This document shows positions 22,732 through 62,041 of a stretch of DNA of 64,000 bases, piece after piece. Each line of letters starts with the position of its first letter. Within the stretch, counting starts at the first letter, position 1. Under the pieces are notes generated by a model. The model did not search any database. It worked only from the letters and a program-made list of their open reading frames with translations, and was not told the DNA's origin. Origin of the DNA: Thermotoga sp. KOL6 (lineage in GTDB: Bacteria > Thermotogota > Thermotogae > Thermotogales > Thermotogaceae); contig NZ_LNDE01000002.1 in NCBI RefSeq assembly GCF_002866025.1, forward strand, positions 62,001 to 126,000. The letters are read 5' to 3'. The position numbers and the translations under genes are program-made.

Positions 22732-22947
22732 ATGTACGAAAATGAACGAGAGAAATTGTGCGAAGCTCATATGATATTGGAAAAATACGGTCTTGTAACC
22801 TATACGAGCGGAAATGTGAGTGTGAAAATAGGGGATCACGTTTTGATAAAGCCTTCTGGTGTTCCTTATACTGTTTTGAAGCCAGAAGATTTTGTTGTAA
22901 TAGAACGTCTCTACGTCCAGTATCACACTAAATATGGCCAGAAATGA
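22732..22947 (+). pseudogene. araD: Internally deleted L-ribulose-5-phosphate 4-epimerase (AraD)
   Basis: Residues 1-56 (MYENEREK ... SGNVSVKIGD ... KPSGVPY ... LKPEDFVV) match the N-terminus of class II aldolase/AraD proteins. The frame then jumps straight to ERLYVQYHTKYGQK, which resembles the extreme C-terminus of AraD. The product is 71 residues, whereas the family has about 210-230. The missing middle carries the zinc histidines and the catalytic residues, so the product cannot be an active epimerase. The reading frame is kept, and the ribosome site GGGAGGG and start are intact. This fits a single in-frame deletion of roughly 140-150 codons. Confidence 0.88.
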
Positions 22948-22960
22948 GAGGGGGGAGATC

Positions 22961-24481
22961 ATGTATCTCGTTGGGAGCGATATTGGAACGCAGGGGACGA
23001 AATCTGTTGTTGTGAACGAGAAGGGAGAAGTACTTGCGGAAGCTTTTAGAGAGTATGAGGTGCTCACACCAAAACCAAACTGGGCGGAGGAATGGCCAGA
23101 TGTGTGGGTAAAGGCCGTTTTCGAGACAGTAAAAAAAGCAGTGGAAAAATCTGGTGTCCCAAAAAAAGAAATAGCTGGCATCGCTATAAGTGGTCTTTAT
23201 GGAGGATCTGGAATACCTGTTGACAAAAACATGGAACCTTTGAGACCCTGTTTGATCTGGATGGATAGGAGGGCCGTGAAAGAAACCGAATGGGTAAAAC
23301 AAAACGTTCCAAAGGAGAAACTCTTTGAGATCACGGGAAATTATGTAGATTCTTATTTCGGGTTCACAAAGATCATGTGGATCAGAAACAACGAGCCAGA
23401 GATTTGGAAAAAAATCTACAAATTCATCACACCGAAAGATTATGTGATCTATCAAATGACAGGTGAAATAGTGATTGATTACTCTTCCGCAGGAAATCTG
23501 GGTGGTGTGTTCGATATCAGAAAACTCACTTGGTCTAAAGAGATGTGTGATATCTTGGGGATACCAATCGAGTACTTACCTGAAAGAATAGTAAAATCCT
23601 CCGACGTGGTGGGCAAAGTAACAAAAGAAGCTTCTGAACTTTGCGGACTTCTCGAGGGAACACCTGTCGTTGCTGGTGGAATAGATGCTCCTGTTGCCCA
23701 ACTTTCTGCCGGTGCACTCGAAGAAGGAGAACACGTTGCGATGGTGGGGACCTCCACTTGTTGGGGAACCGTTCACGACGGCTCAAAATTGGCTTTTGGC
23801 CTCGTAAATTATCCGTACGTGGTATACGATACCGAAAGAATTTATACTTTCGGTGGTTCTGCTACCACGGGTGCACTCGCAAGATGGTTCAAAGAACAAT
23901 TTGGAGAGAGTGAGACGATAGTTGGTGAGAGGACGGGTATATCACCTTATCAATTGTTCGACAAGGAGGTGGCGAGCATCCCTCCTGGAAGTGAGGGAAT
24001 AGTTGTTCTTCCGTATTTCATGGGGGAAAGATCTCCAATATGGGATCCTTCTGCAAGGGGTGTATTTTTCGGTGTAACTCTGTATCACAAAAGGGCGCAT
24101 CTTTACAGAGCTTTGATGGAAGGAGGAGCATATGCTCTGAGACACAACATGGAGGAGGGTTTGAAGGCAGGGCTGAAGCTGAACGATGAATGTTGGATAG
24201 TTGGGGGTGTTTCAAAATCTTCAGTTTGGGTTAAAATATTTGCGGATGTTACGGGTTACAAAATGAGGCAAGTTGCTAGTCTTGTAGAAGCTCCATACGG
24301 AGATGCGTTTTTGGCTGGACTTGGAACGGGTGTTATAGATAAACCCGAAAGGATAAAGGAGTGGGTGAAGTACAGAGAACCTGTAGAGCCCGATCTAGAA
24401 AATAAGAGAATTTATGACAAATACTATGAGATATACAGGGAACTCTATGAAAGAACGAAAGAGCTGATGGCTAGATTATGA
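22961..24481 (+). CDS. FGGY-family sugar kinase (L-ribulokinase/xylulokinase type)
   Basis: ATP-dependent carbohydrate kinase, 506 residues from ATG 22961 after GGGGGAG. N-terminal phosphate loop GSDIGTQGTKS, and an AGGIDAPVAQLSAGA segment near residue 240 as in FGGY kinases, with the catalytic aspartate. Between the araD relic and the AraM-like gene it would by context be the L-ribulokinase of an arabinose pathway. That pathway seems broken here, and the substrate (ribulose, xylulose or another ketose) cannot be fixed from sequence. The gene itself looks intact. Confidence 0.88.
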   Translation: MYLVGSDIGTQGTKSVVVNEKGEVLAEAFREYEVLTPKPNWAEEWPDVWVKAVFETVKKAVEKSGVPKKEIAGIAISGLYGGSGIPVDKNMEPLRPCLIWMDRRAVKETEWVKQNVPKEKLFEITGNYVDSYFGFTKIMWIRNNEPEIWKKIYKFITPKDYVIYQMTGEIVIDYSSAGNLGGVFDIRKLTWSKEMCDILGIPIEYLPERIVKSSDVVGKVTKEASELCGLLEGTPVVAGGIDAPVAQLSAGALEEGEHVAMVGTSTCWGTVHDGSKLAFGLVNYPYVVYDTERIYTFGGSATTGALARWFKEQFGESETIVGERTGISPYQLFDKEVASIPPGSEGIVVLPYFMGERSPIWDPSARGVFFGVTLYHKRAHLYRALMEGGAYALRHNMEEGLKAGLKLNDECWIVGGVSKSSVWVKIFADVTGYKMRQVASLVEAPYGDAFLAGLGTGVIDKPERIKEWVKYREPVEPDLENKRIYDKYYEIYRELYERTKELMARL

Positions 24482-45060: not shown

Positions 45061-46059
45061 ATGAGAGGATGGAGGATACTTCTGGTAGTTTTGTTGTCAC
45101 TAACGGTGATCGCTTGGTCGGAAGTCAAACCAGATTACGTAATTCGTTTCAGTACAGTTGCTGCTCCCACTCAGCCCCAAGTACTTGCGATGCAGAAATT
45201 TGCGGAGATAGTAGAAGAGCTTAGTGGCGGAAAAATTAAGGTAGAGGTGTACCATTCGGGACAGTTGGGAGATCAAAGAACAGAGTTACTTGCAGTAATG
45301 AGGGGAGACCTCGAGATGTGTAGTGATTCCGCTCCATCGTGGTTCGCTGATCTTGCAGCAATGCCTGAATTTGGTGTCTTCGAGGCGGCTTACGCTTTCA
45401 GAGATCTTGACCATATGTACAGAGTTATGACGAGCCAGATGGTTCAGGAACTCTTCGACAAATTGGCAAAGAAAACCAACCTCAGGGTTTTGGATGTTTG
45501 GTATCTTGGAACTCGTGAACTCAATTTCATTGAAAGAGTAGGGCCTGTGAGAAAACCGGAGGATCTTAAAGGTGTAAAGCTCAGAATGCCCAACAACAAA
45601 ACCTTCCTCCACATGGCTCGAGCTTTGGGAGCAAATCCCACACCGATGAGTTTTACAGAAGTTTATCTAGCACTGAAGACAGGAGCCGTGGATGGACAAG
45701 ATAATCCCCTTCCAACGGATTACAGTGCAAAGTTCTGTGAGGTAACTCACTACATAGTTCTCACCGATCATCAAATAGGAATGATTTGTCCGGTGATTAA
45801 CGAAAAACTGTGGCAAAGTATGCCGGAAGAGTATAGAAATTACATCAAAAGAGCCATTCAGGTCGCTCGTTACTACATGAACTATACTGTTTTGGAGCAA
45901 GAGGCAAAATTGTTGAAACTGTTCCGAGAACAATATGGAATGGAAATAATTGTCCCCGATAAAGAAGCATTCATCAAACATGCACACGAATACTATCTGA
46001 ATAATCCGGCATTTGATGAGAAATGGAAGGAGTTGTACAGAAAGATCCAAGAGATGTAA
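45061..46059 (+). CDS. TRAP transporter solute-binding protein, DctP family (first set)
   Basis: 332 residues with an N-terminal signal (RILLVVLLSLTVIAWS). The TRAP signature region GVKLRMPNNKTFLHMARALG (near 175-195) holds the conserved arginine that binds the ligand carboxylate, and AVDGQDNPL follows near 220. Captures an organic or sugar acid for the DctQ/DctM membrane pair downstream. A strong stem-loop separates it from dctQ. Confidence 0.92.
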   Translation: MRGWRILLVVLLSLTVIAWSEVKPDYVIRFSTVAAPTQPQVLAMQKFAEIVEELSGGKIKVEVYHSGQLGDQRTELLAVMRGDLEMCSDSAPSWFADLAAMPEFGVFEAAYAFRDLDHMYRVMTSQMVQELFDKLAKKTNLRVLDVWYLGTRELNFIERVGPVRKPEDLKGVKLRMPNNKTFLHMARALGANPTPMSFTEVYLALKTGAVDGQDNPLPTDYSAKFCEVTHYIVLTDHQIGMICPVINEKLWQSMPEEYRNYIKRAIQVARYYMNYTVLEQEAKLLKLFREQYGMEIIVPDKEAFIKHAHEYYLNNPAFDEKWKELYRKIQEM

Positions 46060-46068
46060 TAGTTTGTT

Positions 46069-46102
46069 AAAACCGGTAGAGCCTTTGCGCTCTACCGGTT
46101 TT
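46069..46102 (+). terminator. Intercistronic stem-loop after the first DctP gene
   Basis: Perfect 14-base arms: AAAACCGGTAGAGC (46069-46082), loop CTTTGC, complement (46089-46102) ending in TTTT. Could terminate part of the transcripts or protect the upstream mRNA. Confidence 0.8.
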
Positions 46103-46123
46103 GAAAAGAGGTGAGACTTTTCA

Positions 46124-46642
46124 ATGAAGATACTAAGGGTTATTTTAAAAACAATATTGGATGTTTTGGAAATTCACCTACCATCGATTTTGCTTTTTAC
46201 TTTCACTATCTCTTTGTTTCTTCAGGTTTTGTTGAGATATGTTTTCAAATTTCCCTCTCCTGAGCTTTATGAGATAACTTCTTACTGTTTCGTGTGGACG
46301 GTTTTGCTCGGTGCAGCATGTGCCCATCGTTATCGTGATCATTTGAGATTCAATATAATTTATGAAAAACTTCCTAGAAAGGTTCAGTTAGTAATAGACA
46401 TAACCTTTGATTCGTTCATAACAATTCTTTTCATAATCTCATTGAAACCTATCTTAAAGCAAACTTTCTGGTATCACCTGATTCGGTCGGAGGTTTTAGG
46501 GATCCCCTGGACTTATTTAGTTATAAGTCTTCCTGTTTTCATGATATTGGTTATTTATCACAATATCTCGTATGTATACTACGGAATTAGAGAATTGATA
46601 ACAGGCGTTCCTGCAAAAACGGAGGGAAAACCATGGGAATGA
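46124..46642 (+). CDS. TRAP transporter small membrane subunit, DctQ family (first set)
   Basis: 172 residues, four predicted membrane helices, with the family stretch ITSYCFVWTVLLGAACAHRYRDHLRF reduced here to key residues W-G-A at about 63-70. Start ATG 46124 after AAAGAGGTGAG. Overlaps the large subunit gene by 10 bases. Confidence 0.88.
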   Translation: MKILRVILKTILDVLEIHLPSILLFTFTISLFLQVLLRYVFKFPSPELYEITSYCFVWTVLLGAACAHRYRDHLRFNIIYEKLPRKVQLVIDITFDSFITILFIISLKPILKQTFWYHLIRSEVLGIPWTYLVISLPVFMILVIYHNISYVYYGIRELITGVPAKTEGKPWE

Positions 46643-47928
46643 TTTCTTTCTTTCTAACGTTCGGTATAATGTTCGTTTTAGGGTATCCTATAGTCTTTGC
46701 CATGATAGCTGCTGGTATAGTTTATTTTCTTTCAACAGGAATAAGTCTTCCAAATCTGTTGGACATTTTAACAATACAATTTTCTGGTCAATACGTTCTG
46801 ATATCTGTGCCGCTTTTCATATTTACAGCCAACGTCATGAACGATTGTGAAATAACAACAAAATTATTTGATTTCATAAAAAAGGCATTGGGAGGAATTA
46901 GAGGGGGGCTTGGATACGCTAACATTGCTGCTAGTATAATTTTTGCGGGTATGAGTGGTTCAGAGATAGCGGATGTCTCGGGAATAGGTAGCATCGAAAT
47001 AAAAGCCATGCTAGATGAGGGATACGACGGAGCATTCGCTTGTGCTGTTACAGCTGCTTCTGCTACGATTGGTCCTATCATTCCTCCGAGCATTCCTATG
47101 GTGATTTATTCGATGCTCACCGGGACTTCCCTGGGATATCTATTTCTAGCAGGCTTCTTGCCAGGGCTTCTTTTGGGAGCTCTTGAAATGTTAATGGTTT
47201 ATATCTTGTCGAGAGTACGCAACTATCCGTGTACCGGGAGAGTCCCATTACCTTTACTTATAAGGTCTTTTTGGGTCTCTCTACCAGCACTTTTAGCACC
47301 TGCCATTCTTCTAGCCGGTCTTTATGGAGGTATCTTCACAGCTACTGAAGCTGCCGCGATAGTAGCAGTTTATGTTATGTTGATAAGTTGGTTAATATAC
47401 AGAACTCTCGGTTGGAAGAAACTCTACAAAATTTTAATGAAGACGGCAGAAACGGTTGGTTACATTAGTTTTATAGTCGCATCGGCGAACATTTTCACTT
47501 ATGTGGTTGCCCGAGAACATGTTCCTCAGCTTTTAACAGAAGCTTTCATAAATGCAGGTTTGCTTTCGAACAGAATTTTGCTCTTGTTGAGTGCTAACCT
47601 CCTGTATTTCGTACTAGGAATGTTCATAGATGTTTCCATAATTCAATTAGTTGTGATTCCTATGATTTTCCCATTGGTGATAGCTGCAGGGATAGATCCA
47701 GTGCATTTTGGTATAATAACCACCGTCAATCTAATGATGGCGTTGGATACACCTCCCTATGGCCAAACCGGTTATATTACCAGTGCGATAAGCGGAACAC
47801 CACTGAGAGAGGTTTTCAAAGAAATGTTGAAATATTGGATACCAATAGAGGTCGCCGCGCTGATGATCATAACATTTTGGCCAGATTTCGTTCTATTCCT
47901 ACCACGTCTCTTTGGCTATTCAGGTTGA
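46633..47928 (+). CDS. TRAP transporter large permease, DctM family (first set)
   Basis: 431-residue membrane protein with about twelve helices. Typical DctM features: AGMSGSEIADVSGIGSIEIKA near residue 108 and IGPIIPPSIPMVIYSM near 155; TPPYGQTGYI lies near 376. Forms the ion-driven import channel with DctQ. No obvious terminator follows; the next gene begins 48 bases later behind its own ribosome site. Confidence 0.94.
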   Translation: MGMISFFLTFGIMFVLGYPIVFAMIAAGIVYFLSTGISLPNLLDILTIQFSGQYVLISVPLFIFTANVMNDCEITTKLFDFIKKALGGIRGGLGYANIAASIIFAGMSGSEIADVSGIGSIEIKAMLDEGYDGAFACAVTAASATIGPIIPPSIPMVIYSMLTGTSLGYLFLAGFLPGLLLGALEMLMVYILSRVRNYPCTGRVPLPLLIRSFWVSLPALLAPAILLAGLYGGIFTATEAAAIVAVYVMLISWLIYRTLGWKKLYKILMKTAETVGYISFIVASANIFTYVVAREHVPQLLTEAFINAGLLSNRILLLLSANLLYFVLGMFIDVSIIQLVVIPMIFPLVIAAGIDPVHFGIITTVNLMMALDTPPYGQTGYITSAISGTPLREVFKEMLKYWIPIEVAALMIITFWPDFVLFLPRLFGYSG

Positions 47929-53962: not shown

Positions 53963-54205
53963 ATGCTTGAAAGGATAAGGGAAAACACAACTCTCAAAGA
54001 GATCATAGAAGCTCATGAGAGGTTGGAAAAAGTTCTCAGGAAGTATGGATTCGATACTTGTTGTGCAAAGATGAAAAATCTGAAAGACGCATGTGAGGAT
54101 AAAGGATTAAACGTTGGAGAACTTCTAAAGGAGTTAAACAGGATCGTAGATGAGATAAACGAAGAAGAGAGGATAATAAAGGAAATCGAATCTAAATTTT
54201 TGTAA
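53963..54205 (+). CDS. RIC/ScdA N-terminal-like (DUF542) small protein
   Basis: 80 residues from ATG 53963, six bases after GGAGGT. The stretch YGFDTCCAKMKNLKDACEDK with C33, C34 and C44 matches the N-terminal domain of iron-sulfur repair protein ScdA/RIC. The hemerythrin-like di-iron domain of full RIC proteins is absent. Probable metal- or thiol-binding role; real function unknown. Confidence 0.78.
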   Translation: MLERIRENTTLKEIIEAHERLEKVLRKYGFDTCCAKMKNLKDACEDKGLNVGELLKELNRIVDEINEEERIIKEIESKFL

Positions 54206-54217
54206 GGAGGTGTGTGT

Positions 54218-54421
54218 ATGAGATATGTGTTGAGCGTGCCGGATATCTCTTGTAATCATTGTAAGATGAGAATTTCTAAGGCGTTGGAGGAAATCGGTGT
54301 GGATGATTACGAGGTGAACGTTGAAGAGAAAAAGGTTATCGTTGAAACCAACGATCTCGATAAAGTTTTGAGAAAGCTCGAAGAGATTGATTATCCTGTC
54401 GAAAGTTATACGGAAGCTTGA
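54218..54421 (+). CDS. HMA-domain metallochaperone (CopZ-like)
   Basis: 67 residues, one heavy-metal-associated domain with the CXXC site C12-C15 in DISCNHCKM. ATG 54218 after GGAGGTG, with a second in-frame ATG two codons earlier. It probably delivers Cu+ to the CopA-type ATPase encoded upstream. Last gene of the cluster; its end overlaps the convergent ThuA-like gene by 16 bases. Confidence 0.88.
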   Translation: MRYVLSVPDISCNHCKMRISKALEEIGVDDYEVNVEEKKVIVETNDLDKVLRKLEEIDYPVESYTEA

Positions 54422-54990
54422 AGAAAATCTTTCAAAACCCTTTTCAAAAAAATTCGAAATTTTCCATCTTTAAGGCCCTCATTGTGAGCAGGAGTGAGGG
54501 CCAATATTTCACCTTCAAAAAATCTCCTCTTCCATCCTGCAACGGTTTTTCCATCCTCTGATTCACTCCAGAGAAATATTTCTACATCCGATCTAAGCTC
54601 GATAAAATATTGTTCATCCGCGAGTACAAATTCAACCCTTTCTCCGTAGTATCTCACTTTCTTCTGTGGGGGATGATGGATGAATCTTCCCCCCACTAAC
54701 CTGTTGTAACTCTCTGGAAAGTGGGCAAGACCCGAATGCCAGGCAAAAAGTTTTCCACCGGATCTGATGTATCCTTCCAAAAGTTTTATTTCCTTCTCTT
54801 CTAACCATGGTTTATTTTCATCGATGAGGTTCCATCTTCCTATAACAACCAAGTTCGGTAGCTTCCGTATTTCATAGAATTTGTTTGGCGAGTAATCGTA
54901 GATGATACCTTTTTCCAAAACATTTTGAAGAGTTTCCAAATAAAGGTCGTGATCGTGATATTTGTCTCCAAGAAAAGCAAAAATTTTCAT
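54406..54990 (-). CDS. ThuA-like (class I amidotransferase-fold) protein
   Basis: 194 residues of the trehalose-utilisation ThuA fold. Seen: VVIGRWNLIDE, then GGKLFAWHSGLAHFPESYNRLVGG (residues around 80-102) and the family HHPP segment; C-terminal ALTPAHNEG. The family is usually found with sugar catabolism genes, but its reaction is poorly known. Divergent from the second TRAP operon. Confidence 0.83.
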   Translation of the reverse strand: MKIFAFLGDKYHDHDLYLETLQNVLEKGIIYDYSPNKFYEIRKLPNLVVIGRWNLIDENKPWLEEKEIKLLEGYIRSGGKLFAWHSGLAHFPESYNRLVGGRFIHHPPQKKVRYYGERVEFVLADEQYFIELRSDVEIFLWSESEDGKTVAGWKRRFFEGEILALTPAHNEGLKDGKFRIFLKRVLKDFLQASV

Positions 54991-55048
54991 GACAATCCCC
55001 TCCTCGGTCTAATGCTACTACTGTCATATGTAACAGAAAAGTTAACAG

Positions 55049-55078
55049 TTGACTCTGGAACTTTTTATGTAATAAAAT
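55049..55078 (+). promoter_or_regulatory. Predicted promoter of the second TRAP operon
   Basis: TTGACT (55049-55054), 18 bases, TAAAAT (55073-55078). Just upstream TAACAG occurs twice (55031-55036 and 55043-55048), with an 11-base offset of one helical turn, a possible regulator site. Confidence 0.6.
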
Positions 55079-55143
55079 TTTTTTGCAAAAAGATCTATTT
55101 AATACAATTTAGAAAAAAATTTTATTTAGGGAGGTGTTGGTTA

Positions 55144-56154
55144 ATGAGCAAAAAGGTATTGTTAGCCATTGTTTTGGGAGTATTGATTGTTTCATTAACG
55201 TTCGGTGCAAAGTATACCTTAAGATTTGGACACGTGCTCGCTCCAGGAGAACCTTACCATCAGGCGTTCTTGAAATGGGCGAAAGCAGTTGAAGAGAGAA
55301 CGAATGGAGATGTTAGAATCGAGGTTTTCCCGAGTTCACAGCTCGGAGTCGAAGAGGATGTTATCGAACAGATCAGGATGGGAGCACCGGTTGGTTGGAA
55401 CACAGATTCTGCAAGACTTGGGATGTATGTTAAAGATATAGGAGTAATGAATCTCGCGTACTTCATCGATTTCATGGGTGCAAAGACGCCCGAAGAGGTG
55501 ATAAAGACATTGAAGAAAATCAAACAATCACCAACTATGCAAAAGTGGTTGAAAGACCTAGAGCAAAGGTTTGGTATCAAGGTATTGTCCTTTTACTGGG
55601 TACAAGGATACAGACATTTTGTGACAAACAAACCTATCAGAAAACCGGAAGATCTGAGTGGTTTGAGAATAAGAACCCCTGGAGCCCCCGCTTGGCAAGA
55701 ATCTATAAGAGCACTCGGTGCGGTTCCTGTAGCTATCAATTTCGGAGAGATCTATACGGCAGTTCAAACCAAAGCTGTTGATGGGGCAGAACTCACCTAT
55801 GCAAATGTTTACAACGGTGGTCTATACGAGGTTTTGAAGTACATGTCTGAAACTGGTCATTTCCTCCTCATAAACTTCGAAATTGTCAGTGCAGATTGGT
55901 TCAACAGTTTGCCACCGGAATATCAGAAAATAGTCGAAGAAGAGATGGATAAAGCGGGAATAGAAGTATCGCTCAAGATCATGAAAGAACTCGAAGAAGA
56001 GTACAAGCAGAAATGTATAGAAAAGGGTATGACTGTTATACCCGCTTCTGAAATCGATAGAGAAGCTTTCATGGAGAGGGCGAAACAAGCGTACAAGAAG
56101 TTAGGACTCGAAGATGCACTAAATCAGTTAATCAAGGAAGTGAAAGGAGAGTGA
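55144..56154 (+). CDS. TRAP transporter solute-binding protein, DctP family (second set)
   Basis: 336 residues from ATG 55144 after GGGAGGTG. Signal peptide MSKKVLLAIVLGVLIVSLTFG. The TRAP core LSGLRIRTPGAPAWQ with its conserved arginine lies near residue 175, followed by GEIYTAVQTKAVDGAE. I recall a T. maritima protein in this genomic position with a solved TRAP binding-protein structure. Binds an acid or sugar acid in the periplasm. Confidence 0.93.
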   Translation: MSKKVLLAIVLGVLIVSLTFGAKYTLRFGHVLAPGEPYHQAFLKWAKAVEERTNGDVRIEVFPSSQLGVEEDVIEQIRMGAPVGWNTDSARLGMYVKDIGVMNLAYFIDFMGAKTPEEVIKTLKKIKQSPTMQKWLKDLEQRFGIKVLSFYWVQGYRHFVTNKPIRKPEDLSGLRIRTPGAPAWQESIRALGAVPVAINFGEIYTAVQTKAVDGAELTYANVYNGGLYEVLKYMSETGHFLLINFEIVSADWFNSLPPEYQKIVEEEMDKAGIEVSLKIMKELEEEYKQKCIEKGMTVIPASEIDREAFMERAKQAYKKLGLEDALNQLIKEVKGE

Positions 56155-56162
56155 TCTTCAAG

Positions 56163-56186
56163 GCCCAGCCCAATGGGCTGGGCTTA
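56163..56186 (+). terminator. Intercistronic stem-loop after the second DctP gene
   Basis: GCCCAGCCC (56163-56171), loop AAT, GGGCTGGGC (56175-56183), then TTATT. Perfect 9-base GC-rich stem directly between binding-protein and permease genes. Confidence 0.8.
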
Positions 56187-56211
56187 TTCTGAATTGACAG
56201 AGGTGATAGTT

Positions 56212-56691
56212 GTGAAAAAATTCGATGAAATGCTTCTGAAATTTGAAAAACACTCCGCAAAAGTATTACTCTTAGTGATGATTGTTCTGGTTTTCTCCTC
56301 TGGAATTGCAAGGTTTTTGAAGCATCCCATAAACTGGGCGGTGGACTTCAGTACTTTTTTATTCGGTTGGGCATGTTTTTTTGCGGTGGATGTTGCTTGG
56401 CGAGAAAACAAGATGATGTCTGTGGATATTCTGGTAAAACGTTTTTCTAACAGAACGCAAAAGATTATAAGGCTCGCAAATTACATAATTATCCTGGCGT
56501 TTGTTGTTTACCTCATCATATGGGGGTTCTACCTCTCCTATAAAACTAGATACAGAACTTTCGTTGGGATGCCGAATTTTAGTTACACATGGGTTACTCT
56601 GAGTATACCGGTTGGCGGAATACTCCTCTTTAGGACCACAATTCTGAAGATAATCGCAGAATTCAGAGACAACAAGAAGGAGGCAAAGTGA
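56212..56691 (+). CDS. TRAP transporter small membrane subunit, DctQ family (second set)
   Basis: 159 residues counted from GTG 56212, which has AGAGGTGATA at the right distance; a longer frame starts inside the stem-loop. Four membrane helices, with the typical FSTFLFGWACFFAVDVAWRE core near 54-73. Pairs with the DctM protein that starts one base after its stop. Confidence 0.87.
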   Translation: MKKFDEMLLKFEKHSAKVLLLVMIVLVFSSGIARFLKHPINWAVDFSTFLFGWACFFAVDVAWRENKMMSVDILVKRFSNRTQKIIRLANYIIILAFVVYLIIWGFYLSYKTRYRTFVGMPNFSYTWVTLSIPVGGILLFRTTILKIIAEFRDNKKEAK

Positions 56692-56692
56692 T

Positions 56693-57976
56693 ATGGTAAT
56701 AGTACTGATTGCTTTTGCCGTTTTCTTGATTTTAGGAATGCCCGTTGCTTTCGCTATAGGAATATCGGGATTTCTCTGGTTTCTTCAGCATCCCGAACTT
56801 CCTATAACCATACCCATTCAAAGATTGCTGTCGCAGACAGTGAACTTCACTTTACTCGCGATTCCCATGTTCATAGTGGCTGGAAATGTGATGAATTCAG
56901 CTGGGGTGACGAGGCGCCTTCTCGATTTTGCTTCGACGCTCGTCGGTCACATGAGAGGTGGACTCGGTCAAGTTTCGGCGGTTCTTTCCACGTTGATGGG
57001 AGGGGTTTCGGGTTCCAGTATAGCGGACGCAGCGATGGAAACAAGAATGCTTGGACCTGAAATGTTGAGGAGAGGTTATCCCAGGGGATTTGCAGTGGCC
57101 GTAAATGTATGGACGTCTTTGATCACACCGATCATACCTCCTGGAATTGCGTTCATCATCTATGGAACGATTGGTCAGGTTTCGATCGGTAGACTCTTTG
57201 CAGCAGGTATTGGACCAGGGCTTCTTCTGATGATTGTTTACATGATCACCATCTGGTTTGTAGCAAAGCGGTTGAATCTTGCACCAGAAAGGGAAAAAAA
57301 GGCTTCAACTGGTGAAATAATGAGATCTTTAGGAAAAAGCATTTGGGCGCTCATTTTCCCTATTTTGTTAATTATAGGTCTCAGGGGAGGCCTCTTTACA
57401 CCTTCAGAAGTAGGATCTTTTGCTGTGTTATATGGAATATTTGTAGGATTTATTATCCATAGAGAGATGTCATTTAGGGTTCTCTATTGGGAAACTCTTG
57501 AAAATTCTCTTGGGGACATAGGTAGTGTAATGTTTATTCTGTCGATGTCTTCCATTTTCGGTTATGGAATGATTTGGGAAAGAATCCCTGAAAAGTTGGC
57601 TGAATTTTTACTTGGTATCACTAGCAATCCGAACTTGTTGATGATTATGATATCTATTTTCTTGGTATTCGCTGGATTGTTTGTAGATGCCACCGCTCTC
57701 ATCCTCATGCTCACAGCCATTTTACTTCCTGTTGCGAGACATGTGGGAATAGATCCTGTTCATTTTGGATTGGTTTTCATTCTCTCCGCTGCGATGGGGA
57801 ATCAAACTCCGCCTGTCGGAGCATCGATGTACGCAGGATGTTCTGTCCTTGGTGCCACGTTAGAAGAATACATTAGAGCGTCTTGGCCTTTCTTGGTAGT
57901 TACTGTGATCGCTATACTCATTGTTATTTTCTTCCCACAGATTGTTCTCTTCATACCGAATCTCATCTTCGGATAA
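56693..57976 (+). CDS. TRAP transporter large permease, DctM family (second set)
   Basis: 427 residues with about twelve helices. DctM hallmarks are GGVSGSSIADAAMETRMLGPEM near 100-121 in shortened view (G-S-S-I-A-D core), and PIIPPGIAFIIYG near 150. NQTPPVGASMY lies near 370. ATG 56693 after AAGGAGG. Followed within 14 bases by the SDR gene. Confidence 0.94.
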   Translation: MVIVLIAFAVFLILGMPVAFAIGISGFLWFLQHPELPITIPIQRLLSQTVNFTLLAIPMFIVAGNVMNSAGVTRRLLDFASTLVGHMRGGLGQVSAVLSTLMGGVSGSSIADAAMETRMLGPEMLRRGYPRGFAVAVNVWTSLITPIIPPGIAFIIYGTIGQVSIGRLFAAGIGPGLLLMIVYMITIWFVAKRLNLAPEREKKASTGEIMRSLGKSIWALIFPILLIIGLRGGLFTPSEVGSFAVLYGIFVGFIIHREMSFRVLYWETLENSLGDIGSVMFILSMSSIFGYGMIWERIPEKLAEFLLGITSNPNLLMIMISIFLVFAGLFVDATALILMLTAILLPVARHVGIDPVHFGLVFILSAAMGNQTPPVGASMYAGCSVLGATLEEYIRASWPFLVVTVIAILIVIFFPQIVLFIPNLIFG

Positions 57977-57990
57977 GGAGGGATTGAGAA

Positions 57991-58746
57991 ATGAACTTTC
58001 AAGGTAAGGTGGTTTTGATAACGGGAGCCGGATCTGGTATAGGAAAGAAAGCTGCTATTATGTTTGCAGAAAGAGGAGCAAAAGTAGTTGTTAACGATAT
58101 TTCTGAAGAGAAAGGAAATGATACCGTAAAGTTGATAAAGGAAAAAGGAGGAGAAGCGTTTTTTGTCTACGGGGATGTGGCAAAAGATGCGGAGAAAATC
58201 GTGAGAAAGACGGTGGATGTATTCGGCAGACTTGATATTCTTGTGAACAATGCAGGAATTGTACCGTACGGAAACATAGAGGAAACATCAGAGGAAGATT
58301 TCGATAGGACCATTTCGATCAATGTTAAGGGGCCGTTCTTGCTTTCTAAGTATGCAGTTGAACAGATGAAAAAACAGGGTGGTGGTGTGATTGTCAACGT
58401 TTCATCAGAGGCGGGCCTAGTTGGTATACCCAGAAGATGTGTGTACAGTGTATCAAAAGCTGCCTTGATTGGGCTTACCCGATCGTTGGCAGTTGATTAC
58501 GTCGGATACGGAATAAGAGTTAACGCTGTCTGCCCTGGAACGACTCAGTCTGAAGGTTTGATGGCGAGGGTGAAGGCATCCCCCAATCCTGAAGAACTTC
58601 TGAGGAAGATGACCTCTAGAATACCTATGGGAAGACTCGGAAAAGAGGAAGAAATAGCTTTTGCTATATTGTTTGCAGCGTGTGACGAAGCGGGATTTAT
58701 GACGGGTAGTATCATATCGATAGATGGGGGTTCTACAGCGGTGTGA
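57991..58746 (+). CDS. Short-chain dehydrogenase/reductase
   Basis: 251-residue NAD(P)-dependent oxidoreductase. TGAGSGIG (11-18), NNAG near 88-91, serine in VNVSSEAG and the catalytic pair Y152 and K156. ATG after AAGGAGG. In the TRAP/RpiR/hydroxyacid dehydrogenase operon it probably oxidises the imported substrate. FabG-like in length, but the context argues against fatty acid synthesis. Confidence 0.9.
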   Translation: MNFQGKVVLITGAGSGIGKKAAIMFAERGAKVVVNDISEEKGNDTVKLIKEKGGEAFFVYGDVAKDAEKIVRKTVDVFGRLDILVNNAGIVPYGNIEETSEEDFDRTISINVKGPFLLSKYAVEQMKKQGGGVIVNVSSEAGLVGIPRRCVYSVSKAALIGLTRSLAVDYVGYGIRVNAVCPGTTQSEGLMARVKASPNPEELLRKMTSRIPMGRLGKEEEIAFAILFAACDEAGFMTGSIISIDGGSTAV

Positions 58747-58758
58747 GGAGGTATCAAA

Positions 58759-59601
58759 ATGGACGTTATCCAAACAATTAGAGAAAAGTATGAGGAATTT
58801 ACCAAAGCGGAAAAACGTATAGCAGACGTTGTTCTTGAAAATCCAAGAAGTATCATAGAAAGTTCTATCAGTGATTTGAGTAAGAGGGCAGGAGTAAAAA
58901 GTGAAGCATCTATTGTGAAGTTCTATAAAAAGTTGGGTTTGAGCAGTTTCCAGCAATTTAAGGTGTTACTCGCACAGAGCATCTCTCGCGCCCCCCTAGA
59001 GATAGTTTACGAGGATGTTTCTGATGAAGATGACACGAAGGTCGTCACTGAAAAGATATTCAAAGCCACAGTGAGGGCGATTTTGGATACTTTAGATTCT
59101 TTGGATGTTGCCTCTGTAGAAAGAGCAGTAGAGTTGTTCAAAAATGCTAGAAGAATCATATTTGTGGGCTTTGCTGCTTCTGCTGCCGTTGCTTTTGATG
59201 CATTTCATAAGTTCACCCGAATAGGAAAGAATTGCTTGTTTTCTAACGATGAACACATTGTAGCCACCATACTCGCAACAGCTACTCCTGACGATCTTCT
59301 CGTCACCATCTCGCACACCGGTGAGACGATTTCTATCGTGAATTTTGCTAAAAAGGCGAAAAGTCTGAGGATACCTGTTGTTGCAATAACTGGCAATAAG
59401 AAGTCTACTCTTTCAAAGTATTCCGATGTTGTCCTCGTTACAAACACCAAAGAAACCAAGATAAGAACTGATGCTATGACGTCGAGAATAGTGCAACTCG
59501 TAATCCTCGATACGATATACACACTTCTCGCTGCAAGAGATCCACGAGCTATAGAAAATCTTAACAAGAGCAGGTTAGCGGTCTCGGAGCTCAAGTATTG
59601 A
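58759..59601 (+). CDS. RpiR-family transcriptional regulator
   Basis: 280 residues: N-terminal helix-turn-helix (residues 1-80; SISDLSKRAGVKSEASIVKF) and a C-terminal SIS sugar-phosphate domain (FVGFAASAAVAFDAFHKF, TISHTGETISIVNFAKKA). ATG after GAGGTATC. It lies inside the operon it probably controls. The ligand is expected to be a phosphorylated sugar or sugar acid. Confidence 0.92.
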   Translation: MDVIQTIREKYEEFTKAEKRIADVVLENPRSIIESSISDLSKRAGVKSEASIVKFYKKLGLSSFQQFKVLLAQSISRAPLEIVYEDVSDEDDTKVVTEKIFKATVRAILDTLDSLDVASVERAVELFKNARRIIFVGFAASAAVAFDAFHKFTRIGKNCLFSNDEHIVATILATATPDDLLVTISHTGETISIVNFAKKAKSLRIPVVAITGNKKSTLSKYSDVVLVTNTKETKIRTDAMTSRIVQLVILDTIYTLLAARDPRAIENLNKSRLAVSELKY

Positions 59602-59617
59602 ACACGGAGGGGAAATC

Positions 59618-60604
59618 ATGAAGAAAAGAATCTTGGTTGTTACACGCACTTTTGGAAAATATTCTCGTGATCCAATAGATTTTCTTGAAAGAGAAGGCTT
59701 CGAAGTGATAAAAGTTGATAGGATAGATGCCAAGGCTTTGAAGGGAGTTGATGCGCTTATAGTGGGAACTCATCCTGTAACAGCGGAAATGATAGAGAGC
59801 TCCGATCTCAAAATAATAGCGAAACACGGTGTGGGTGTGGATAACATAGATCTTGAAACGGCTACAAATAAAGGAATACCGGTTACCATTACAACTGGGG
59901 CGAACTCACTTTCCGTTGCAGAACTTACCATAGCTTTTGCATTTGCTCTGAGCAGGGGGTTGATATGGGCTCATAACATGCTGTTTTATGAGAGAAAGTG
60001 GGAAAGCATAGTGGGTCAAGAAATTGCGGGGAAGGTTCTTGGTGTAGTAGGATTCGGAGCGATTGGCCGGGAAGTTGTCAAAAAAGCTACATGTTTAGGT
60101 ATGAAAGTTTTGGTCTATGATCCGTTCGTTAGTAAAGATTCCATAAGGTTGTATGAGGCGATTCCTGTTGATGAGTTAGATCAACTGTTGAAAGAAAGCG
60201 ATATCGTATCCTTACATGTTCCCTTGAATGAAGATACAAGAAACATGATAGGAGAAAGAGAATTGAACCTCATGAAAAGATCTGCTTTTCTAATAAATAC
60301 TTCTCGAGGAGGATTAGTGGATGAAGCCGCCCTCGTAAAAGCGTTGAAAGAAGGAAGAATAGCGGGAGCGGCTCTCGATGTTTTTCAAGAAGAACCACCA
60401 GACCCTAACTCACCGCTCTTTGAATGTCCAAATCTTATCGTAACCGCACACATAGGAGCACACACAAAAGAAGCCATTTATAGAATGAACATGATGGCTG
60501 CTCAGTCCGTTGCTGAGTTTTTTAAAGGTAAGGTTCCAAAACATATTGTGAACAAAGAAGTTGTTGATATACTGAAGAGAAAGGGATATCAGGAGGCCTC
60601 TTGA
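59618..60604 (+). CDS. D-2-hydroxyacid dehydrogenase (phosphoglycerate dehydrogenase-like)
   Basis: 328 residues. NAD-binding GFGAIGREV near 145 and catalytic triad R230 (NTSRGG), E259 (DVFQEEPP) and H278 (TAHIGAHT). It lacks the C-terminal ACT regulatory domain of long SerA. Last gene of the TRAP operon, so a glycerate/hydroxypyruvate or other 2-keto acid substrate is more likely than serine synthesis. The promoter of the tRNA gene overlaps its stop codon. Confidence 0.87.
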   Translation: MKKRILVVTRTFGKYSRDPIDFLEREGFEVIKVDRIDAKALKGVDALIVGTHPVTAEMIESSDLKIIAKHGVGVDNIDLETATNKGIPVTITTGANSLSVAELTIAFAFALSRGLIWAHNMLFYERKWESIVGQEIAGKVLGVVGFGAIGREVVKKATCLGMKVLVYDPFVSKDSIRLYEAIPVDELDQLLKESDIVSLHVPLNEDTRNMIGERELNLMKRSAFLINTSRGGLVDEAALVKALKEGRIAGAALDVFQEEPPDPNSPLFECPNLIVTAHIGAHTKEAIYRMNMMAAQSVAEFFKGKVPKHIVNKEVVDILKRKGYQEAS

Positions 60605-60629
60605 ACCAGAAAGGACTATGTGTTAAAAT
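60601..60629 (+). promoter_or_regulatory. Predicted promoter of tRNA-Thr
   Basis: TTGAAC (60601-60606), 17 bases, TAAAAT (60624-60629), with a TG two bases before the -10. It begins at the last codon of the dehydrogenase gene. Confidence 0.65.
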
Positions 60630-60643
60630 AGTTCCAGCGACGA

Positions 60644-60720
60644 GCAGGCGTAGCTTCAAGCGGTGGAGCGCCGCCTTGGTAAGGCGGAGGGTGTGGGTTC
60701 GAGTCCCACCGCCTGCTCCA
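60644..60720 (+). tRNA. tRNA-Thr, anticodon GGT
   Basis: 77 bases that fold completely. Acceptor GCAGGCG pairs with CGCCTGC; D stem GCTT/GAGC; anticodon stem CCGCC/GGCGG with loop TTGGTAA (anticodon 60678-60680). T stem GTGGG/CCCAC has loop TTCGAGT. CCA is encoded (60718-60720) after discriminator T. Reads ACC and ACU. An eight-T run (60721-60728) follows at once and ends the transcript. Confidence 0.95.
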
Positions 60721-60748
60721 TTTTTTTTGTCTCTTTTTCCCTATACAC

Positions 60749-62041
60749 TTACAACACCCTCTCACCTTCAATGAACACTGCTGCTGGATCGTCTTCAAAA
60801 AGAAGAGGATTTCTTTCGTATAAACAAAAATCAGCTTTGAAACCTGTCTCTATCTTTCCCGTCTTTATTTTTACTTGTCTTGCCCCAGCTTCTGTCATCA
60901 GATAAAAAGTTTCTTCTCTAGAAAATCCCATCTTCAATGCGTGTTCTGCCACATACTTGGGATCACTTGGAGAAACTGGAGAATCAGACGAGAAGGAAAT
61001 GGAGATACCCATTTCGAATATCTTTCGAAACGGATAAAGAAGTGCGTTAACTTTTATATTTTTGAGTAGAGGTAAGTCTTCGAAGTAAAAATGTGGTTGA
61101 ACGGTGAGAGAAGCGCTCTTTAATCTTTTTAGATCTTCTTCTTTTATGAGTTGAGCATGAACGATTCTATGGCCAGGGTGTTTTTCTAAAACATCCAGAG
61201 TAACACTCACCGCTTCGTCACCAATCGCGTGTATGTTCAGGATCAAACTTTTTTCATCACAGAATTCAGCTAATTTTTCGAGTTTTTTCTTTGAAACGAG
61301 TTGAACACCGTGTGTGCCATCTTCGTATTCACCAGATATGAAAGCTGTTTTCGCACCAAGCGAACCATCCATGAAAACTTTTATTCCTCTAACATGGACT
61401 TTAGGGCTGAGATCGCGAAAGTAGTGTGGTCTCAAATTTTTGTACTTCAGTTTCTCGAAGAGTCTAACACGTGAATTTTTGAGGACATCGAGGAGTTCTT
61501 CTACCTCAACACCATTTAGATCATCGCTTTGAACGAAAGTCACTCCATGTTTCAAAAACTCTTGTTCTCCGACTTTGTAAAATTTCAAGAGTTCTTTTTT
61601 GAATACATGTTCGTATATCGGTTCGAGGTTTTCAACGATGTATCTGGTCTTTATGCCCAGCACTTTCATAGCTGATATATTTAGAAGAGCTTTGTGTCCA
61701 CATCTTCTAATAAGGAAAATAGGTTTTTCTATCTCATCTAGTTTTTTCAAAGTGGTTCCATCCGGTTCTTCGCTCCATCCTCTTCCAAATATCACGTTCT
61801 CCTGTTTCCGTTCGTTCAGCTTTTCAAAAAGTTCATCCCATGAGGAAAAAGAAATGGAATCTTTGGCAAATCCAGTTCCCACAACGTGTGCGTGTGAATC
61901 TACGAAACCGGGTACTAGAAAGTATCCCTTCACATCGATCGAAGGACCGTGTGATTTTTCAACGAAAACACCGTTTTCAACAAATAAATCTTTTTGCACA
62001 AATCTATTTCCATTCCAGACAAGAGCACCTTTCAGAATCAT
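60749..62041 (-). CDS. Amidohydrolase family 3 (YtcJ-like) protein
   Basis: 430-residue metal-dependent hydrolase. Metal motif HAH in VDSHAHVVG near residue 49, NIHAIGDEAV near 252 and VHAQLI near 275; SFSSDSPVSP near 350 holds the late conserved aspartate. Overlaps pyrE by 4 bases (ATGA), so it is the last gene of the pyr operon. It is not a dihydroorotase by pattern; an N-acyl or ring amide hydrolase is likely. Substrate unknown. Confidence 0.85.
   Translation of the reverse strand: MILKGALVWNGNRFVQKDLFVENGVFVEKSHGPSIDVKGYFLVPGFVDSHAHVVGTGFAKDSISFSSWDELFEKLNERKQENVIFGRGWSEEPDGTTLKKLDEIEKPIFLIRRCGHKALLNISAMKVLGIKTRYIVENLEPIYEHVFKKELLKFYKVGEQEFLKHGVTFVQSDDLNGVEVEELLDVLKNSRVRLFEKLKYKNLRPHYFRDLSPKVHVRGIKVFMDGSLGAKTAFISGEYEDGTHGVQLVSKKKLEKLAEFCDEKSLILNIHAIGDEAVSVTLDVLEKHPGHRIVHAQLIKEEDLKRLKSASLTVQPHFYFEDLPLLKNIKVNALLYPFRKIFEMGISISFSSDSPVSPSDPKYVAEHALKMGFSREETFYLMTEAGARQVKIKTGKIETGFKADFCLYERNPLLFEDDPAAVFIEGERVL

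Follow-up and report, generated by a model that had tools for sequence, protein, structure and literature searches.

The DNA analysed here is a stretch of 64,000 nucleotides from the thermophilic bacterium Thermotoga sp. KOL6 (below, the window; C2:62001-126000 of genome G000, 1.71 Mb). At positions 55144-60604 of this window, six genes code for a tripartite ATP-independent periplasmic (TRAP) transporter, a short-chain dehydrogenase/reductase (SDR), an RpiR-family regulator and a D-2-hydroxyacid dehydrogenase (HADH). On balance, this operon probably serves the C2/C5 editing of a hexonate or ketohexonate, with L-idonate, 2-keto-L-gulonate and L-gulonate as the leading substrate candidates. A six-carbon sugar acid is proposed because relatives keep related genes beside sugar-acid kinases and epimerases. 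As judged by orthology, the operon is the Thermotoga uct locus (UctR regulon). The locus itself is already known, and the proposed substrate class is the new part.

What the sequence shows directly is the gene set, the protein families, a linkage to hexonate genes that is conserved among relatives, and candidate downstream genes in the genome. The six consecutive open reading frames (ORFs) lie on the plus strand, with intergenic gaps of 18, 1, 14, 12 and 16 bp, and all six proteins exceed the Pfam gathering scores of their families (Table 1). DctP, DctQ and DctM, each above its gathering score, are coded together as a TRAP transporter. The start of uctP was taken at the ATG at 55144, the longest mechanical start of this ORF being 54925. 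An earlier, sequence-only reading of this DNA had described six genes in a row that couple acid uptake to two NAD(P) oxidoreductases and an RpiR regulator sensing sugar phosphates, and had suggested that the combination could oxidise a hydroxy or sugar acid at two positions. The co-directional ORFs and the Pfam families bear out the gene row. The coupling, with oxidoreductases of NAD type and a regulator of the RpiR/SIS kind, is supported, and so is the idea of two carbons.

The SDR carries the motifs TGAGSGIG (residues 11-18), an Asp in VVNDIS (33-38), NNAGI (86-90), a Ser in NVSS (136-139) and YSVSK (152-156), with an acidic residue at the end of beta-2 (NAD-type) and the S-Y-K set. In the HADH, VGFGAIG (144-150), the Asp in VYDPF (166-170), NTSRGG (227-232), DVFQEEP (254-260) and AHIGAH (277-282) correspond to the Rossmann motif with the Asp that follows, and to the stretches holding Arg, Glu and His. 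Assignment of the HADH as phosphoglycerate dehydrogenase (PGDH; TIGR01327, 301.1 bits) or glyoxylate reductase (PRK13243, 254.9 bits) was rejected, as the scores lie below the curated cut-offs of 454 and 455. UctR scored below the curated cut-off for HexR (PRK11302, 174.9 bits, cut-off 296), and the window's SDR (G000:C2:119988-120749) below that for D-mannonate oxidoreductase (PRK08277, 151 bits, cut-off 281). The SDR passed the 'glucose 1-dehydrogenase' subfamily PRK07231 (246.5 vs 215), a broad subfamily that is uninformative on substrate, since the SDR in the place of UxaD in the same genome passes it too (232.1).

The identification as the uct locus rests on an orthologous solute-binding protein (SBP) and an orthologous RpiR regulator, found in the same order in Thermotoga genomes. 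The window's SBP matched PDB entry 2hpg_A with 686.7 bits, and a structural alignment gave a Z score of 39.4 at 91% identity. We take 2hpg to be T. maritima TM0322, a TRAP SBP described as able to form dimers; the title of the entry names no ligand. The rows listed after 2hpg in the fold search were TRAP SBPs, from which no ligand was inferred. Two close solved SBPs, 4ovt and 4o8m, presumably hold L-fuconate and L-galactonate. In PMC3750489, the UctR regulon is predicted, UctR (TM0326) and the transporter UctMPQ are listed under 'Hypothetical sugar utilization', UctR is described as conserved in five closely related Thermotoga species, and the pathway is left uncharacterised. The T. maritima regulon resembles the operon here in joining TRAP genes and a regulator in a hypothetical sugar pathway. 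It differs in that the available text of PMC3750489 gives no substrate, whereas here a substrate class is proposed from the neighbours in relatives. Literature searches for TM0322-TM0327 by locus tag returned nothing on a substrate, and no description of this system was found in searches whose coverage mostly left out subscription papers.

Some SBP match was found in 50 of the 103 Thermotogota genomes searched. The close SBP group (67-93% identity; 72% for the partial gene in G002) comprised seven Thermotoga genomes, the genera g7, g8 and g9, and the genomes G067 (g10) and G002 (g16). All seven searched genomes of the window's genus carry the SBP at 92-100% identity. The whole gene order through HADH was present in five of the six other Thermotoga genomes, two of them (L036 and L038) with an opposite-strand ORF called in the place of DctQ; in G096, the contig ends inside the RpiR gene. 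Among the 18 Thermotogota uct loci examined (L033-L050), 16 have HADH at an identity of at least 47%, and one of the other two ends at a contig edge. Genes were called by a simple ORF picker and loci were clipped by contig ends, so that these and all following neighbour counts are lower bounds.

All 12 uct loci searched outside Thermotoga (11 genomes, 5 genera) have an FGGY kinase gene that starts at a distance of 1.4-5.6 kb from the SBP. For this count, FGGY genes were listed in 17 genomes and their distances to the uct SBP were then computed, with the omission of G062 (SBP clipped by a contig end) and G096 (8.4 kb contig); L051 of G062, outside the count, shows FGGY beside the SBP. A genome with 5-10 FGGY genes would have one within 8 kb by chance with a probability of 4-7%, an estimate that assumes even kinase placement and independent genomes, and related genomes are not independent. 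The four g9 genomes have the kinase 11-18 bp behind HADH. Its place in g8 is upstream and divergent, with a permease-like gene between in three of four cases (the one tested, in L042, is Pfam CitMHS). Genome G057 has two uct-like copies (L043, L044), and in both the kinase follows the SDR. In G002, the neighbouring FGGY kinase is 54% identical to the gluconokinase-like protein of the window's genome, and this kinase is separated from the uct genes by an SDR resembling mannonate oxidoreductase (55.9% to the closest among four queries). The gene right after the uct SDR in G067 is UxuB-like: over 525 aa it shares 54.7% identity with the mannitol-dehydrogenase-family protein that the window's genome codes beside kdgA. 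The lack of a kinase or aldolase, pointed out in the sequence-only reading, is correct within 55144-60604, where none was found among the ORFs and Pfam matches. It is not supported as a feature of the system, as relatives carry FGGY and some of them 2-keto-3-deoxy-6-phosphogluconate (KDPG) aldolase beside the related genes.

Scanned against GTDB genomes, the SBP alignment gave 182 relatives, of which the best 80 loci were taken further. These 80 fall in the Atribacterota, Bacillota, Spirochaetota, Thermodesulfobacteriota, Pseudomonadota and others. Two Bacillota loci, L144 and L084, show putative operons of the order GntR-SDR2-LarA-FGGY-HADH-Eda-SBP-DctQ-DctM-SDR, with a small extra ORF before the SBP in L084; the last SDR is 57% identical to that of the window. 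The SDR2 of L144 passed as D-mannonate oxidoreductase (368 vs cut-off 281), its LarA as a putative hexonate epimerase dependent on the nickel-pincer nucleotide (NPN; 582 vs cut-off 500), and its Eda as aldolase of KDPG and 4-hydroxy-2-oxoglutarate by two models (296 vs 238; 182 vs 156). The SDR2s tested in relatives reach the PRK08277 cut-off, those of L102, L091 and L140 included. L140 also has a glucuronate isomerase (539 vs 387), an Eda (224 vs 156) and a gene resembling 2-keto-3-deoxygluconate kinase, below its cut-offs. In L069, a side branch of the SBP tree with a distant SDR (39%), the 5-keto-L-gluconate epimerase IolO lies near the SBP (381 vs cut-off 300). Taken as neighbours, mannonate oxidoreductase and hexonate epimerase point to the gluconate/mannonate series.

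The SBP tree (98 rows, quick method, midpoint root) placed 25 of 25 FGGY-clustered rows, with uct, on the 49-row side of one branch (Shimodaira-Hasegawa-like approximate likelihood-ratio test 91). At least one of FGGY, LarA, Eda, KdgK and SDR2 was found at 28/43 loci on the uct side vs 3/49 on the other; the Fisher p of 1e-9 for this comparison treats related genomes as independent. The redundant loci L066, L067, L070, L072 and L075 and the window itself were removed before this comparison. Without the Thermotogota, hexonate genes still stood at 16 of 26 loci on the uct side. On the other side of the tree, IclR (17/49) and Ldh2-type dehydrogenases (16/49) are common, and the wider SBP family therefore probably serves more than one substrate. 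Beside the SBP relatives of L069, L070, L089, L095, L106 and L110, there are tripartite tricarboxylate transporter genes, an M24-peptidase-like protein and a Gfo/Idh oxidoreductase (TctC and TctA confirmed in L070, the oxidoreductase in L069), a grouping that may be another acid-uptake set.

In the proposed pathway, UctPQM would import a six-carbon sugar acid, as hexonate or in its keto form. The SDR would act at C5 and the HADH at C2, leading from an L-series hexonate to D-fructuronate or 5-keto-D-gluconate. Enzymes coded elsewhere (UxuB-like and UxaD-like reductases, the LarA-family epimerase in the place of GntE, the gluconokinase-like FGGY protein and Gnd) would then take over, passing D-mannonate or D-gluconate on to 6-phosphogluconate and pentose phosphates. 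UctR, through its SIS domain, would be released from the -10 box, which it would cover, by a phosphorylated intermediate. Substrate, carbon positions, reaction directions, repression and effector are what we infer. L-Gulonate and D-mannonate are C5 epimers via D-fructuronate, and L-idonate and D-gluconate are C5 epimers via 5-keto-D-gluconate; the idonate/gulonate/gluconate series needs a C2- plus a C5-acting enzyme. The Escherichia coli L-idonate (idn) system, together with 2-ketoaldonate reductase, covers the chemistry of 2-keto-L-gulonate, L-idonate, 5-ketogluconate and gluconate. Its transporter family and, in part, its dehydrogenase families differ from those of the uct operon.

The sequence-only reading held that no known pathway fits exactly, a view that two published pathways speak against. 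The fungal route from 2-keto-L-gulonate over L-idonate and 5-keto-D-gluconate to D-gluconate combines a D-2-hydroxyacid dehydrogenase with a C5 dehydrogenase after it. GluC of Aspergillus niger, one of the D-isomer-specific 2-hydroxyacid dehydrogenases, uses NADH to turn 2-keto-L-gulonate into L-idonate (PMC4870679, PMC5814732), GluE takes the next step, at C5 (PMC5306355), and the NADPH-dependent SDR GluF forms D-gluconate (PMC4870679, PMC5814732). This D-glucuronate pathway (GluC/GluD, GluE, GluF) is like the pathway proposed here in its C2 step by a D-isomer 2-hydroxyacid dehydrogenase, its C5 oxidation and its SDR, a likeness by reaction; it differs in being fungal, in the NADPH dependence of GluF and in that no TRAP transporter is mentioned in the text available. 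In Haemophilus influenzae, L-gulonate taken up by a TRAP system is oxidised at C5 and then handed on to UxuB (GulPQM, GulD, UxuB, UxuA, KdgK, KdgA; PMC5788505); PDB entry 4pbq has L-gulonate bound. TRAP uptake of a hexonate, C5 oxidation and UxuB are shared with the pathway proposed here, whereas the uct operon has both an SDR and an HADH. The available text of PMC12632266 contains no 'short-chain' or 'SDR' wording, and no link to LguD was drawn.

Candidate genes for the downstream steps lie at two other places in the genome. L061 holds a second TRAP set, gnd, a GntR-like gene, uxaE, an SDR gene in the place of uxaD, a LarA homologue and an FGGY protein, in the order gnd-uxaRED-gntEK reported for T. 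maritima (PMC3750489; for the hexuronate gene names, also PMC6978723). Its 6-phosphogluconate dehydrogenase scored 672 bits vs 413, and its UxaE 617 bits with Pfam. T. maritima GntE2 forms D-gluconate from D-mannonate in vitro (PMC7583248). The UxaR locus would thus supply downstream steps; it differs from the uct operon in being a separate locus with a GntR-type regulator and, here, with TRAP genes of its own beside it. This TRAP set (L061:6033-8956) fits the uxaPQM reported for some Thermotoga species (PMC3750489). At L151 lie a gene for UxaC (Pfam 521 bits), kdgA and, in the place of uxuB, a gene of the mannitol dehydrogenase family. At L151:2943-5253, kdgA adjoins the uxuB-like gene with no kdgK between, unlike in T. 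maritima, where the order is kdgA-kdgK-uxuB-uxuA (PMC3750489); kdgK was not searched for elsewhere in the genome. UxuA (PF03786) had no match in the window's genome, with a positive T. maritima control. Because UxuA was not found and kdgK is lacking between kdgA and uxuB, D-mannonate in this strain would leave via GntE-GntK-Gnd. A broader picture is tentative: the Thermotogota may share with Atribacterota and Bacillota relatives a route of TRAP import of L-idonate or 2-keto-L-gulonate and paired C2 and C5 redox inversion to D-gluconate, with a nickel-pincer hexonate epimerase in some lineages, its steps spread over two separate, unlinked loci in Thermotoga and brought together as a single cluster in Bacillota.

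Upstream of the operon, the stretch with the promoter-like pattern (55049-55078) is largely conserved in the aligned Thermotoga relatives, and GGAGGTG precedes the first ATG (55144). The promoter scan gave 9 promoter-like sites in the region vs a shuffle mean of 10.5, so the TTGACT/TAAAAT pattern alone is not above chance. TTGAC- and TATAAT-like hexamers also stand 5' of the SBP gene in L039, L045 and L047. The element ATAAAATTTTTTTGCAAAA, which overlaps the -10 hexamer, recurs unchanged or one base off upstream of the operon in five of the six other Thermotoga genomes; G091 lacks it. A whole-genome search with up to 2 mismatches found it once, at its own operon, and the reversed control pattern was not found. 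It is a candidate site of the operon's own regulator, UctR. An A/T-rich element over the -10 also occurs in L039, L045, L046 and L047, and L039 (genus g8) has GAAAATATTTTTC in the same area as the second A/T-rich element of the window, AGAAAAAAATTTTATTT.

Several observations weigh against the proposed function. No FGGY kinase stands at any of the six Thermotoga uct loci, where the closest one on that contig lies at a distance of 18-43 kb, and the candidate operator, with no second site in the genome at up to 2 mismatches, gives no co-regulation link with gntEK. The gluconokinase-like FGGY protein of the genome scored 366 bits against a gluconokinase cut-off of 648. All four scanned neighbour kinases resemble gluconokinase and xylulokinase models and were below the cut-offs, that for gluconokinase included, and those neighbour FGGYs that best match the genome's own gluconokinase-like protein share, except in G002, about 25-36% identity with it. 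Because they fall below this cut-off, the neighbour and own FGGY proteins could act on mannonate or another acid. The own LarA homologue scored 195 bits with the NPN_18 model (cut-off 500) and probably belongs to another LarA group. Haemophilus uses UxuA, for which the search above found no match in the window's genome. The gene order also varies: both copies in G057 (L043, L044) have an HADH-like gene (48 and 47%) upstream of the SBP, with RpiR reversed on the other strand, and at L048 the one HADH is distant (33%) and RpiR gave no match. In the SBP group, 15 of 43 loci show none of the hexonate genes; five of these are the other Thermotoga loci, and some others are clipped by contig ends. 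The Bacillota HADHs are 39-47% identical to the window's HADH, the genome's own PGDH-like paralogue is equally close (47% over a part), and deep branching in the HADH tree is poorly supported, with long branches; the Bacillota HADHs may not be strict orthologues. The predicted SBP model has a pLDDT below 50 at 199-203 and 208-216. More generally, genes can be neighbours for reasons other than one shared pathway.

A narrower case of the proposed function would involve L-gulonate only: UctPQM would import it, the SDR would oxidise C5 to give D-fructuronate, UxuB would form D-mannonate and GntE/GntK would finish, while HADH would be a side activity or deal with a by-product. The Haemophilus TRAP pathway begins in the same way (PMC5788505), a UxuB-like gene follows the SDR in L048, and an SDR-type mannonate oxidoreductase occurs at 12/43 loci inside the SBP group and 0/49 outside. 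We nevertheless regard this case as doubtful, since it leaves unexplained, without a C2 step, why HADH is kept at 16 of 18 Thermotogota loci and an HADH-cluster gene at 29 of 43 loci of the SBP group.

Short-chain hydroxy acids (D-glycerate, hydroxypyruvate, lactate, tartronate) would make the HADH a hydroxypyruvate/glyoxylate reductase or PGDH, and its best PDB matches are indeed named phosphoglycerate dehydrogenase and glyoxylate reductase. This is unlikely, given that the HADH scores well under both curated cut-offs, that the genome has a separate PGDH-like paralogue and that the neighbours in relatives are six-carbon acid genes. The same neighbours disfavour the C3-C4 part of the earlier candidate list (glycerate, erythronate, lactate). 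A substrate outside the gulonate/idonate series has in its favour the IolO gene of L069 and the presumed ligands of 4ovt and 4o8m, but is rather unlikely, L069 being a side branch with a distant SDR and the neighbouring mannonate oxidoreductase and hexonate epimerase pointing to gluconate and mannonate. That the operon lacks a catabolic role and serves redox balance or the uptake of an osmolyte is very improbable: two NAD-type enzymes could give a net redox-neutral interconversion, but the kinase linkage in five other Thermotogota genera and the kinases and aldolases in Bacillota speak against it. C2/C5 editing of a hexonate or ketohexonate thus stays the preferred function.

Table 1 Features of the uct operon and its flanks in the window.
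Feature	Position	Strand	Basis or remark
uctP, TRAP solute-binding protein DctP	55144-56154	+	Pfam DctP 311 bits
uctQ, DctQ small permease	56173-56691	+	Pfam DctQ 84.8 bits
uctM, DctM large permease	56693-57976	+	Pfam DctM 354 bits; TIGR00786 485 bits, cut-off 268
SDR oxidoreductase, NAD-type by motif, predicted hexonate C5 dehydrogenase	57991-58746	+	adh_short_C2 221 bits
uctR, RpiR/MurR-family regulator	58759-59601	+	HTH_6 76.9 bits, SIS 79.9 bits
HADH, NAD-type by motif, predicted C2 dehydrogenase/2-ketohexonate reductase	59618-60604	+	2-Hacid_dh_C 206 bits, 2-Hacid_dh 99 bits
Promoter-like TTGACT/TAAAAT, spacer 18	55049-55078	+	pattern scan
ATAAAATTTTTTTGCAAAA, operator-like element overlapping -10, candidate UctR site	55072-55090	+	upstream alignment
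AGAAAAAAATTTTATTT, second A/T-rich element, possible second operator (weak)	55111-55127	+	partly conserved alignment block
Weak ThuA match	54406-54990	-	34.8 bits, cut-off 33.4; divergent from operon
tRNA-Thr	60644-60720		after HADH gene

The ThuA-like gene next to the operon has a relative at 68-73% identity in the same place in six other Thermotoga loci; ThuA is tied to keto-sugar metabolism. An Rfam scan of 54000-61000 at the gathering threshold found nothing beyond the tRNA. In L034, L035, L036 and L038, a 359-aa ORF starts over the tRNA-Thr after HADH (L036: 11363-12442); the only one tested, that of L036, is a DNA N4/N6 methylase. The window keeps the tRNA-Thr, without the 359-aa ORF there, and these ORFs are possibly an island next to a tRNA gene. 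A second complete TRAP set lies in the window at 45061-47928 (Pfam DctP 249, DctQ 82 and DctM 313 bits), and its SBP shares 29% identity with UctP. The sole FGGY kinase that the FGGY search found inside the window is at about 22934-24481.

The uct operon is a matter of ordinary metabolism. If the proposed function is true, one of the three regulons that the T. maritima network leaves open under 'hypothetical sugar utilization' (PMC3750489) would gain a substrate class, and so would the TRAP binding protein 2hpg, solved with no ligand in its title. The NPN group-18 'putative hexonate epimerase' family, with an activity that is a hypothesis in PMC7583248, would likewise be placed in a pathway.

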